A DNA stretch of 64,000 nucleotides. It comes from Ruminococcus sp. (lineage in GTDB: Bacteria; Bacillota; Clostridia; Oscillospirales; Ruminococcaceae). Location: contig JAJBTZ010000090.1 in the NCBI GenBank assembly GCA_020860605.1, positions 124,001 through 188,000 of the forward strand, in the 5' to 3' direction. The notes under the pieces were generated by a model that worked only from the letters and a program-made list of their open reading frames with translations, ran no database searches and was not told the DNA's origin. Both the position numbers and the translations under genes were made by a program. Shown one piece after another: positions 41,000 to 45,189 of this stretch (its first letter is position 1; each line of letters opens with the position of its first letter).

Positions 41000-41075
41000 T
41001 GGTGGACCCGATGGGACTTGAACCCACGCTCTCCGCGTTGCGAACGCGGCGCTTTACCAACTAAGCCACGAGCCC
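41000..41075 (-). tRNA. tRNA-Ala (CGC)
   Basis: A 76-nt tRNA. Acceptor GGGCTCG/CGGGTCC with the G3-U70 wobble typical of tRNA-Ala, anticodon loop TTCGCAA giving CGC, encoded CCA. Confidence 0.95.
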
Positions 41076-41160: not shown

Positions 41161-42372
41161 TCAGGAATCCGATTCAGCTGTTGTTTCCGAGGCAGGAGCC
41201 GGAGCATTTTCTTCCTCCCCGCTGCTCTCTGAATTTCTCTTTCCAACATCAGTTTTGATGAGCTTATAGATTGCCGAGAAGAGTGGTACGCAGATTAACA
41301 TTCCAGGGATTCCGAAGAGTCCGCCACCGATGCTTACTGCTGCCAGCACCCAAACAGAAGGAAGCCCTATCGACCTGCCGACTATCTTTGGATAGATAAA
41401 GTAGTTGTCGATAAACTGGAGAACCAGAATGAAGAGAACGAATATTACTGCCTGGATAGGGCTTACTGTGAGTATCATGAAGGCGCCTATTATGGTCCCT
41501 ATCCATGCTCCTACAATCGGTATTAGGGCTGTGAGGCCAATCAGGGCTCCTATCATTGTTGGATATGGAAGTCCTAAGATGAGCATTCCTATTGTGCAAA
41601 GTGTTCCTAATAGAACCGCTTCTGTACACTGGACGACAATGTATCCATGATAGCTCTCGTTGAGAGTGCCCAAAACATAGTAGATTCTTTCATGCCACTT
41701 TGGCTTTAAGTATGTTTTGGAAAGCTTTCTCAGCTGACCTAAAATCCTGTCCTTTGCAGACAGGAAGTAGACTGAGAAAACGATTCCTACCAAAACAGTC
41801 GACAGAGCCGATACAACAGTGGGAGCGACGCTTGTAACGGTGTTTACTGTGCCCTGAATATCGCTTATAACGTCGGTTAAGCTTGCTGAAAGCAACGAAA
41901 TTATTCCGACTATGCTGCTGACGTTTGATGCGATTTCGTTCCAGTCAATTCCCTCGAGCCACTCTATAACAGCGTCAGGCAGGAGTCCGACGATGGTTTT
42001 GTTTTCCAGTATCTGAAGGACAAGCGACGGCAGCTGGTCGATAAATGTCTTTATGCAGGACACGAACTGAGGGATTACAAGAAGAAGTACTAAAACAATG
42101 ACCAAAACGATGGTCAGGTAGCCTAAAAGCATACAGACTGGCCTACGGCTTTTTGCCACCGCCTTTTTCTCGCTGTTCGGGAAATAGTGCTTTTCATAGA
42201 AGCTCGTTGGAATATTTACCACATATGCGATTATGAGCCCGGCGATAAGAGGATTCAGCGCGTTCATGACAATTCCCAGGGCTGCGAAGATGCTGTCTAC
42301 AAAGTGGATGAATAAGAAAAGAATAGCTGCGCTGACTATTGCCTTAAAACAGGTTTTCCATTCGAGTTTCAT
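41161..42372 (-). CDS. AI-2E family transporter
   Basis: A 403-residue polytopic membrane protein of the TqsA/YdiK type. It has about seven or eight helices, with the family motif PYPTMIGALIGLTALIPIVG near residue 280. Family members move small solutes or ions; the AI-2 link comes from one E. coli protein and does not define the substrate here. The C-terminal tail is polar and Glu/Ser-rich. The gene is divergent from a TetR gene, and an operator-like palindrome lies in the shared intergenic region. Confidence 0.9.
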   Translation of the reverse strand: MKLEWKTCFKAIVSAAILFLFIHFVDSIFAALGIVMNALNPLIAGLIIAYVVNIPTSFYEKHYFPNSEKKAVAKSRRPVCMLLGYLTIVLVIVLVLLLVIPQFVSCIKTFIDQLPSLVLQILENKTIVGLLPDAVIEWLEGIDWNEIASNVSSIVGIISLLSASLTDVISDIQGTVNTVTSVAPTVVSALSTVLVGIVFSVYFLSAKDRILGQLRKLSKTYLKPKWHERIYYVLGTLNESYHGYIVVQCTEAVLLGTLCTIGMLILGLPYPTMIGALIGLTALIPIVGAWIGTIIGAFMILTVSPIQAVIFVLFILVLQFIDNYFIYPKIVGRSIGLPSVWVLAAVSIGGGLFGIPGMLICVPLFSAIYKLIKTDVGKRNSESSGEEENAPAPASETTAESDS

Positions 42373-42394: not shown

Positions 42395-42416
42395 GGACAA
42401 AAGCAGTAGATTGTCC
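42395..42416. promoter_or_regulatory. Operator-like palindrome A, GGACAA-N10-TTGTCC
   Basis: In the intergenic region between the AI-2E and TetR genes. A copy with the same spacing and the same 9-nt half-site CACGGACAA is at 45028-45049. Confidence 0.7.
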
Positions 42417-42438
42417 GTGATTCTTTAACTTGTTATAC

Positions 42439-42467
42439 TTGAAATTTTGTCGATTTTTTTGTACAAT
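42439..42467 (+). promoter_or_regulatory. TetR gene promoter
   Basis: TTGAAA (42439-42444), 17 bp, TACAAT (42462-42467). Palindrome A lies 22 bp upstream of the -35. Confidence 0.6.
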
Positions 42468-42497
42468 GATAATATTGCAACGAAGGGAGGAATAAAA

Positions 42498-43043
42498 GTG
42501 GCAGACTCAAATATCACAAAACGCGCTCTTGCGTCTGCACTTAAGGAGTTGATGACCGAAGAGCCCTTCTCAAAGATCAGTGTAACTGACATTTGTGAAA
42601 GATGCGGGATGAACAGAAAAAGCTTCTATTATCATTTCAAGGACAAGTATGACCTTGTAAACTGGATATTCGATTCTGAGTTTTTGCTACTAGTCAGAGA
42701 CAATTCAGCCAAGACCAGCTGGGAGCTTTTTGATGTTCTCTGCCATTATCTTTACGATAACAGAGAGTTCTATAAGCCTGCACTTCAGATAGAAGGTCAG
42801 AACTCATTTTCAGACCATTTCAGAGAAATGCTGCGGGTTACTCTTCGTTCGAGTTTCAGTGGGTTTCTTGACGAGTATGAGGATTTTCAGCTCAATTTCT
42901 ATGCTGACGCTCTTGTCTGCACAATAGAGAGATGGTTGACATCGAAGAAATGTGACACACCAGATGAATTTCTGAAAAAGATTGGTTCCTGTGCCCGTTC
43001 GTTCTCAAAGATTTCAGACAAGATTCTTCCTCCTGAGAACTGA
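42498..43043 (+). CDS. TetR/AcrR-family regulator
   Basis: A 181-residue regulator starting at GTG 42498 with GGGAGG 7 nt upstream; the longer in-frame start at 42447 overlaps the promoter. The N-terminal helix-turn-helix (FSKISVTDICERCGMNRKSFYYHFKDK, shown by its two ends FSKISVTDI and SFYYHFKDK) is typical of the DhaS-like branch. The ligand domain is not diagnostic. It is convergent with patatin and shares a terminator with it. Two matching palindromes suggest it controls itself or the AI-2E gene and the radical SAM region. Confidence 0.88.
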   Translation: MADSNITKRALASALKELMTEEPFSKISVTDICERCGMNRKSFYYHFKDKYDLVNWIFDSEFLLLVRDNSAKTSWELFDVLCHYLYDNREFYKPALQIEGQNSFSDHFREMLRVTLRSSFSGFLDEYEDFQLNFYADALVCTIERWLTSKKCDTPDEFLKKIGSCARSFSKISDKILPPEN

Positions 43044-43048
43044 TTATT

Positions 43049-43082
43049 CCCGTCGTTCAGTTTAAAAACGACGGGATTTTTT
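43049..43082. terminator. Terminator between the TetR and patatin genes
   Basis: CCCGTCGTT pairs with AACGACGGG (43049-43057/43067-43075), followed by T6. The patatin stop codon lies inside the hairpin. Confidence 0.85.
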
Positions 43083-43896
43083 CTGCATCTTTGATCCCCT
43101 TCTGATAAAGCTTATCGAGGGGTTCTTTTTCTTTTGTGAGAGTGTCAACTCCGCATGTATCATCAGGAGCAAGGATGAGAACCTTTCCTTCTGCTTCAAG
43201 CTGCTTTGCTGTTTCAAGCTGAGAATTATAGTGATCTGCTCTTCCGCTGATTCTTTCAGCAGAGATTGGATACTCTTTTTTGATTCTCTTTGCAATAGCG
43301 ACGTCTCGCTTCGGAAGCCTTAAGACATCGCGAGGCTTACTGAGAATCACAACTACTTTGTCGCAGCCCATTGAGATTGCTTTCTCAACCGGAATCGGGT
43401 CTCCGAGCGCTCCGTCAAAATACGGCTCGCCATCGATGACATAAGGCTTGCATACATAAGGAATTGAGCAGGAAGCCTTGACAATGTTAAGGTTGTCCTG
43501 ACTAACGTAATCTTTTATAAAGTACTTTGTTTCGCCTGTTCTGGCATTTTCGGCTACAACCAGAAGTTCTGCTGGATTTGAAAGAAGTGCTTCGAAATCG
43601 AAGGGGCACTCCCCTCCTGCGTTGCTGAGTGTACCGTAGATGTAATCCATGTCTATGTATGAGCCATTTTTGAGAAGATTTGAAAGGCTCATGGCTTCCT
43701 TGCGATGGTTGTAATCGGTGTAAAACTTGTAGTTTCTGCCCTTCTGGCCGGCAAAGAATGTGCAGATATTCGCAGCACCGGCTGAGACTCCGATTCCGAG
43801 ATCAAAGCTTATGCCATGCTCCATGCAGTAGTCCATAATGCCACAGGCATAGATACCTCTCATTCCGCCGCCGACATCGACAATACCCGTTTTCAT
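43057..43896 (-). CDS. Patatin-like phospholipase
   Basis: A 279-residue hydrolase. The oxyanion loop is DVGGGMRG near residue 8, the catalytic Ser is in GVSAG near residue 37, and the Asp of the dyad is in DGALGDP near residue 160. Patatins cleave acyl chains from lipids. ATG 43896 is used because AGAGGG precedes it; the extension to 43923 is unlikely. It is downstream of the cluster-less radical-SAM-like gene in the same operon (61-nt gap), and both start after AGAGGG. Confidence 0.92.
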   Translation of the reverse strand: MKTGIVDVGGGMRGIYACGIMDYCMEHGISFDLGIGVSAGAANICTFFAGQKGRNYKFYTDYNHRKEAMSLSNLLKNGSYIDMDYIYGTLSNAGGECPFDFEALLSNPAELLVVAENARTGETKYFIKDYVSQDNLNIVKASCSIPYVCKPYVIDGEPYFDGALGDPIPVEKAISMGCDKVVVILSKPRDVLRLPKRDVAIAKRIKKEYPISAERISGRADHYNSQLETAKQLEAEGKVLILAPDDTCGVDTLTKEKEPLDKLYQKGIKDAEKIPSFLN

Positions 43897-43956
43897 ATGT
43901 GATTTCCCTCTTTCTGCGTTCATGAGCTAAGCCACTTTGTGACTTAGCTCAATACT

Positions 43957-44961
43957 TCACTTTGTTACTTTAGGATAGCACTTTTCAAAGATTTCTGCAA
44001 GAGGCTGAGTCCTGAAATTGTTGCCACTATTGCAGTCCTTGACAGAGATAAGACTTCCTGATTCATTGAACACCGCTACACATGTATCATCCGAAATGAT
44101 TTCATCAATCATTCTTATAGTTCCTGAATACTCCATAGGAACGCTTGCAGCTGTTCTCGCGTCTCTAAGCTTGCAAATCTCATCATATACTTCGTTACAG
44201 CCGTTATAATCATCATGAGATTTGACGAAGAATGTCAGTACTGGATGAAGCTCATCTGCGATATTGAGCTGCTCCTCACACATTGGCTTTTCGTTATATT
44301 CGTACCAAATAGAATACAGAGCCTTGCTACTTCTTAACTTCTCACAGACCTTTGTTGCATAATCGGAATATTTGACACAAAGCATCAGGTTTCTGATTTC
44401 GCTTGCCTGATCCATAATTCCTTCAGAGATACTTTCTGCATCTGAGAACAGAATAAAGCCACACTCTGTTTCATTATCAAAGATTTCCGTAAGCTTTTCA
44501 GGTATTTCTGAGCAGAAGAAGACATAGGTGTAGATTCCAAGCTTTCTGCCTTGCCTGATGACCTTGGAATATGCCTCTTCGGAGAAGGAATCAGCGTCAA
44601 CATAGAAGGTTATTGCCCAGGGAATGTTATAACCGCGTTCTTTTTCAAGATTTCTGATTGTTTTAGCCCCAGATGTGAAGCTGTTATAGCCGACGTTCAT
44701 ACCGAATTTCAGGATATTACCCGTTCCCACATTTTTGATTGCATCATGAATAAGCGCATAGTAAGGGCTGTTCTCGTCTTCCAGCATCGAGTGAGCAATG
44801 GTTAAAAAGTGCTTCTGAAATCTTCCTGCAGAAAGATTTAGCGCCAGATCTACGAGATTTCTTGATTCCCTGTCGGGATTATCACGCATGTCCTCAAGTT
44901 TCTTGCCAACATAGGCTTCAATAATAGATTTTGCGTTGCTTTGAGTTGCTTTTTGTTCCAT
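43957..44961 (-). CDS. Radical-SAM-like protein lacking the CxxxCxxC motif
   Basis: A 334-residue protein that aligns by eye with the radical SAM enzyme encoded divergently at 45190. Shared landmarks are YNIPWAI (residues ~111-117, against CNIPWAI), VIRQGRKLGIYTYVF (IVKQGKELGCYMYIY) and, near the C-terminus, AVFNESGSLISVKDC...PLAEIF (LHINAKGDVEPC...LLDALR). The segment that carries the CxxxCxxC cluster ligands is missing, and the GGEP motif is replaced by CSEI, so classical SAM cleavage is not expected. ATG 44961 follows AGAGGG. No stop or frameshift breaks the frame, so it is probably functional as a partner or scaffold. Operon with patatin. Confidence 0.75.
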   Translation of the reverse strand: MEQKATQSNAKSIIEAYVGKKLEDMRDNPDRESRNLVDLALNLSAGRFQKHFLTIAHSMLEDENSPYYALIHDAIKNVGTGNILKFGMNVGYNSFTSGAKTIRNLEKERGYNIPWAITFYVDADSFSEEAYSKVIRQGRKLGIYTYVFFCSEIPEKLTEIFDNETECGFILFSDAESISEGIMDQASEIRNLMLCVKYSDYATKVCEKLRSSKALYSIWYEYNEKPMCEEQLNIADELHPVLTFFVKSHDDYNGCNEVYDEICKLRDARTAASVPMEYSGTIRMIDEIISDDTCVAVFNESGSLISVKDCNSGNNFRTQPLAEIFEKCYPKVTK

Positions 44962-45027
44962 AAGAAACCCTCTTTCAAACAAAATTCAGACGTACTAATT
45001 ATAAACTGCTGTAGATTTTTTAAACAC

Positions 45028-45049
45028 GGACAAATAATCTGTTTTGTCC
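45028..45049. promoter_or_regulatory. Operator-like palindrome B, GGACAA-N10-TTGTCC
   Basis: In the divergent intergenic region, next to a minus-strand TATAAT at 44998-45003 that probably serves the pseudo-radical-SAM/patatin operon. Same spacing as palindrome A. Confidence 0.7.
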
Positions 45050-45189
45050 CGAAAAGTAACACTTTTTTATGCGGTCCAATTTTACCACACATTTGGCTTT
45101 CGTGTCCAATGACTTTTTTAAGAAGTAGATTTAAAATATAGTAAAGAAAGCGGAGAAATATTCTCTGCACTAAGAAAGGACAGATACTA

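Follow-up and report, generated by a model that had tools for sequence, protein, structure and literature searches.

A TetR-family regulator related to DhaS, encoded in a 64,000-nucleotide stretch of Ruminococcus sp. DNA (the window), probably binds palindromic operators upstream of its own gene and in a nearby divergent region, and would through them activate itself, the gene of a 341-residue protein together with a patatin gene, and a radical-SAM gene. The unit for which we find support thus comprises four genes, namely tetR, the 341-residue protein gene, the patatin gene in the same run, and the radical-SAM gene (Table 1). A DhaS-type regulator with its operator is a known kind of system; for this regulon, its three-operator layout and the pairing of a dead with an active radical-SAM protein, no prior description was found in the literature searched. 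A literature pattern search for the operator gave no relevant match, and nothing relevant was found on the combination of radical SAM, patatin and TetR in Clostridia. In this way a predicted regulator, operator and promoter layout, conserved across many genera of gut Clostridia, can be assigned to a clostridial radical-SAM enzyme hitherto uncharacterised and to a widespread family of proteins that neither Pfam nor NCBIfam names.

Table 1. Features of the locus, in positions of the window
Feature	Position	Strand	Basis or context
AI-2E family transporter	41161..42372	-	divergent from tetR
Operator A (predicted), GGACAA-AAGCAGTAGA-TTGTCC	42395..42416	.	upstream of tetR promoter
Predicted tetR promoter TTGAAA-N17-TACAAT	42439..42467	+	consensus scan; TACAAT and CTTG(A/C)AA conserved in congeners
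tetR, DhaS-family TetR activator-like regulator, 181 aa, GTG start	42498..43043	+	TIGR02366, PF14278, PF00440
Hairpin, stem of ~10 bp and T-run, between convergent tetR and patatin	43048..43076	.	-16.1 kcal/mol, z -3.0
Patatin-like phospholipase with DUF6363	43057..43923	-	domain match; convergent with tetR
341-aa putative pseudo-radical-SAM protein, probable ATG 44961	43957..44982	-	hhalign, AlphaFold, fold matches
-10 of the 341-aa gene, TATAAT	44998..45003	-	exactly 24 nt from operator B
Operator B (predicted), GGACAA-ATAATCTGTT-TTGTCC	45028..45049	.	341-aa/radical-SAM divergent region
Operator C (imperfect, predicted)	45086..45107	.	good half TGTCC 45103-45107, adjoining radical-SAM -35
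Predicted radical-SAM promoter ATGACT-N17-TAAAAT	45109..45137	+	promoter scan
Radical SAM/SPASM enzyme, 455 aa	45190..46557	+	PF04055 (66 bits), PF13186, CxxxCxxC present

The palindromes A and B are a real pair and not a product of chance. Both have the 22-bp geometry GGACAA-N10-TTGTCC, so that the identical arms and 10-nt spacing reported in the preliminary description are found at exactly the positions it gave, as is the 9-nt half-site common to both, CACGGACAA, which on the forward strand reads TTGTCCGTG at A and CACGGACAA at B. It had noticed no further copy in the window, which holds for exact copies, and the genome-wide search it had called for returned these two exact sites and no more across all 2.28 Mb; they are separated by 2.6 kb, and both belong to the tetR/radical-SAM locus. 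From base composition about 0.13 exact copies would be expected, and the probability of two or more is about 0.008 before their proximity is counted. Near-matches elsewhere in the genome number six, five of them within reading frames of 187-482 codons and the sixth (L006) within a frame of 71 codons; neither A nor B falls within a likely gene, and the sole frame that B overlaps is an uncorroborated one of 124 codons.

Conservation extends the argument beyond a single genome. A close orthologue of TetR (89-95% identity) is present in 10 other genomes of the genus, and all 10 have site A, with the 12 arm bases constant and the 10-nt spacer variable; the arms of site B are likewise exact in these congeners, save for a single base in G024 (GGGCAA). 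Frozen arms around a drifting spacer are, at the level of sequence, the signature of a dimer binding site. Among the same-genus genomes without the locus that were searched, only two hold an exact match, in a single copy each and at an unrelated place. A search through some 85,000 species genomes yielded 80 TetR loci, of which 71 fall outside the close group, with TetR identities of 48-60%. These 80 clostridial loci, 887 kb in all, contain 75 copies of GGACA-N12-TGTCC, where permuted arms give 1.5 on average; the 12-nt spacing is the only one enriched, with at most 7 occurrences at any other, and GGACA ranks first there among all 1024 five-base arms. A 12-base palindrome is short, and with up to two mismatches allowed the count in the window is at about chance level, as one would expect if the pair were accidental or had been kept for some other reason, for example as part of a repeat element. 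The comparative data contradict such a reading, to which we attach next to no credence: the excess of exact sites over expectation, the constancy of the arms beside drifting spacers, and the abundance of the motif in the 80 loci with its sharp optimum of spacing all stand against it.

Where do these sites occur? Most are found either ahead of tetR or in the region that separates the 341-aa gene from its divergent radical-SAM neighbour. A and/or B sites are present in 43 of the 55 loci with a 341-aa gene versus 3 of the 25 without. Ten loci with both the 341-aa and the radical-SAM gene have no exact GGACA-N12-TGTCC at either place. Several TetR homologues, for example those of L099-L104 and L110, have neither these genes nor the operator; these latter loci form a separate group of close TetR proteins (55-60% identity) with another conserved neighbourhood, containing genes for proteins of about 1054 and 417 aa. 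A P-type cation ATPase gene stands beside a TetR of this type in roughly ten loci (L201, L106, L109, L133, L136, L137, L150, L151, L154, L156, L163), and in L201 an operator (L201:2005-2026) is found near the start of a tetR divergent from this ATPase gene, there without the 24-nt spacing described below.

The sites are set at fixed distances from the promoters. Read in the direction of the 341-aa gene, 24 of the 27 non-redundant B sites have a TAnnnT -10 element exactly 24 nt beyond them; averaged over all offsets, the count is 0.7. Site B would thereby cover about -58 to -37 of this promoter (centre about -47.5), directly upstream of a very weak -35 element which the consensus scan missed. 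On the opposite side, operator C, which had escaped the first reading of the sequence, stands exactly 24 nt from the radical-SAM -10 (TAAAAT, 45132-45137), its distal arm being degenerate in the window. At other loci site C is usually an imperfect GGACn-N12-TGTCC as well, with its TGTCC half 52-54 nt past B and beside a -35 of the form (A/G)TGAC(T/A). Of the B regions that have a divergent radical-SAM gene, 15 of 16 contain a site C; of those that do not, 2 of 10 contain one, and one of these two (L127) is truncated by a contig end. Site A lies further out, at about -79 to -58 of the predicted tetR start (centre about -68.5). In the window it is separated from the tetR -10 by 45 nt, which exceeds the B-type spacing by 21 nt (two helical turns); 12 of 21 loci show this 45-nt distance, and in 13 of 21 the TTG of the tetR -35 falls at offset 22 from site A. 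Where the radical-SAM gene is divergent, most loci (L107, L111, L117 and L122 among them) have a conserved block, AAAAGTAACA (45050-45060 in the window), right next to operator B on the radical-SAM side; it may represent an extended contact or the site of a second factor.

What kind of regulator would use these sites? The TetR protein scores 132.4 bits against TIGR02366, above the curated cut-off of 129, and both its domains, the TetR_N helix-turn-helix (PF00440) and TetR_C_8 (PF14278), exceed their gathering scores. Its nearest solved structures are PDB 4mk6, a DhaS-type protein, and 2iu5, the DhaS of L. lactis. DhaS is a TetR-family activator (PMC6534649), and DhaQ has been labelled a coactivator of the DhaS-controlled operon (PMC8952416). 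With its TIGR02366 score and the 22-bp geometry of its predicted operator, the regulator resembles L. lactis DhaS (PDB 2iu5), the activator of dhaKLM. The operator of the latter, by Christen et al. in 2006, is reportedly GGACACAT-N6-ATTTGTCC, its proximal half-site overlapping the -35. A closer parallel is offered by L180, where a DhaS-family regulator is divergent from genuine dhaK and dhaL genes (Dak1, Dak2) and GGACACATTTCGGAATCTGTCC is followed, after exactly 24 nt, by TACAAT in the direction of dhaK; as at the locus described here, the operator abuts a weak -35. Across diverse TIGR02366 loci, the operator occurs within 1.5 kb flanks in 4 of 26, the window included, and thus is not universal for the family.

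The predicted targets differ, however, from those of L. lactis DhaS. There is no Dak1 or Dak2 gene at the window locus, where the neighbours instead encode a patatin, the pseudo-radical-SAM paralogue and the radical-SAM enzyme; there are three operators rather than one, and the regulator apparently activates its own gene. As the association with dhaKLM is lacking at this locus, the equivalog name DhaS should not be transferred to the protein. This suggests that the label 'dihydroxyacetone kinase activator', borne by many TetR proteins, names the right mechanism and the wrong pathway.

In the mechanism we propose, a TetR dimer would bind GGACA-N12-TGTCC. Bound at B, beside the weak -35, it would activate the 341-aa gene and the downstream patatin gene; bound at the asymmetric C, in the same relative position, it would activate the radical-SAM gene; and from A, two turns further upstream, its own gene. 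Activation would resemble that by DhaS at dhaKLM, with a metabolite or a lipid-type ligand as the probable trigger. The geometry favours activation over classical TetR repression, as base-exact phasing at three promoters, the weak -35 and the far-upstream position of site A are more readily understood for an activator in contact with RNA polymerase than for a repressor acting by steric hindrance. Activation is the less common mode among TetR proteins, and the base-exact spacing opens it to direct test. Against the proposal count the ten loci that have both genes and no exact motif, the TetR homologues with neither genes nor site, the poor distal arm of C in the window, and the L201 operator with its different setting.

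TetR-family proteins are mostly repressors, and the same protein on the same sites could accordingly be one, leaving the DNA upon ligand binding and thereby derepressing its own gene and the locus. Operators B and C abut -35 elements, and a dimer bound there could equally well hinder RNA polymerase as assist it; some TetR regulators, moreover, act both as activator and as repressor (PMC12421961). Steric repression, however, does not need the spacing to be fixed to the base across genera, as it is for site B, nor would it be expected from site A, which ends some 58 bp upstream of the tetR start and beyond the core promoter. The very weak -35 of the 341-aa promoter likewise speaks against it, as does the recurrence of the 24-nt geometry at dhaK, a gene of the class that a known activator controls. 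We therefore regard repression as a minority reading, with perhaps a modest chance of being correct. Considerably less probable still is that a different regulator occupies the sites, with the neighbouring TetR as a bystander. We infer binding by this TetR from sequence, other TetR paralogues exist in the genome, and in three loci (L220, L228, L232) the fetched stretch contains operator and 341-aa gene but no DhaS-like TetR. Yet the interval between site A and the tetR promoter is constant in many genera, the sites track the presence of TetR within the genus, and the operator is the same as at the bona fide DhaS/dhaK locus; the paralogues in the genome, in turn, are only 28-33% identical, and the sole near-operator at one of them (L007) lies inside a coding sequence.

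The 341-aa protein, the first of the predicted targets, has no match in Pfam or NCBIfam. Its profile nevertheless aligns with the adjacent radical-SAM enzyme over 331 columns in hhalign (99.9%, E 7e-34), with a gap in the 341-aa protein where the enzyme has CxxxCxxC. This [4Fe-4S] motif is absent from the 341-aa protein and from all homologues checked, and present in the neighbouring complete enzymes. The AlphaFold model is confident (pLDDT 89.6), and its best 24 structural matches listed are all radical-SAM enzymes (Z 15.5 to 11.1), among them SuiB (Z 15.5, rmsd 5.0, 246 aligned), PqqE (Z 14.6) and SkfB (Z 14.2), giving it both the homology and the partial (beta/alpha) barrel fold of this class. 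Judged by profile match, modelled fold and missing motif, the family is one of radical-SAM paralogues that lost the cluster motif and were kept beside an active copy. Among 20 loci fetched with the 341-aa profile, a TetR lies nearby in 11 and a radical-SAM gene in 12, several of the loci being limited by contig ends.

What could such a dead paralogue do beside its active twin? One possibility is that it partners the enzyme without any catalysis of its own; another is that it acts as a sensing co-activator in the manner of DhaQ. DhaQ is a paralogue of DhaK, catalytically retired, and serves DhaS; by analogy the 341-aa protein might sense a ligand and co-activate the DhaS-type TetR, a concrete signal-sensing hypothesis which we put forward tentatively and consider doubtful. 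The likeness to DhaQ is that of a seemingly non-catalytic paralogue of the regulated enzyme, encoded together with a DhaS-type activator; the differences are that the ancestor here is a radical-SAM enzyme and not DhaK, and that the co-activator role of the 341-aa protein is hypothetical. If true, the locus would report the substrate or product of the radical-SAM enzyme itself through a dead copy of that enzyme, and DhaS-type activators would have a recurrent mode in which a retired paralogue of their target enzyme does the sensing.

The 455-aa enzyme belongs with the SPASM radical-SAM class (SuiB, SkfB, PqqE, CteB) by its CxxxCxxC motif and its PF04055 and PF13186 domains, and the 341-aa protein shares the barrel fold of these enzymes; unlike them, the latter and its homologues are devoid of the cluster motif, and, also unlike the class, no RiPP precursor gene was noticed at the locus. 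C116, C120 and C123 of the enzyme are constant in an alignment of 28 sequences, and its scores against NCBIfam equivalogs are far below every cut-off. Its assignment as Tes or a membrane-spanning lipid synthase was considered and rejected, as a PDB sequence search returned SkfB, SuiB and cytosylglucuronate decarboxylase. Radical-SAM relatives of this enzyme, about 460-520 aa in length, occur widely across the order and are found also where there is no 341-aa gene.

The patatin gene, separated by a 33-nt gap from the 341-aa gene, is probably co-transcribed with it, and the hairpin between it and the convergent tetR is likely a terminator. A patatin is present at only some of the 80 TetR loci. 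In about ten loci (L107, L111, L112, L113, L117, L120, L122, L137, L141, L155) the radical-SAM gene has a DegV-family gene (PF02645, FakB-like) in its vicinity or as its immediate downstream neighbour, and a VTT-domain protein is encoded nearby in eight relatives' loci. Together, the patatin, DegV and VTT neighbours give a weak hint of lipid or fatty-acid metabolism.

The preliminary description had let TetR control itself and the locus, in a direction that it left unspecified, as a five-gene unit that included the AI-2E transporter gene. The comparative evidence upholds the regulon shared by tetR and the radical-SAM locus and leaves the fifth gene unsupported: AI-2E lies directly beside tetR mainly in the window's genus, and site A keeps its link with the tetR promoter across many genera in which tetR has no AI-2E gene next to it, so that co-regulation of the latter is not supported. 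In the congeners, no -10 facing AI-2E is found at 24 nt from site A, and their alignment contains no conserved promoter in that direction. A tRNA gene (41003-41075, minus strand) separates the AI-2E gene from the gene before it, which encodes a 472-aa membrane-protein-like product.
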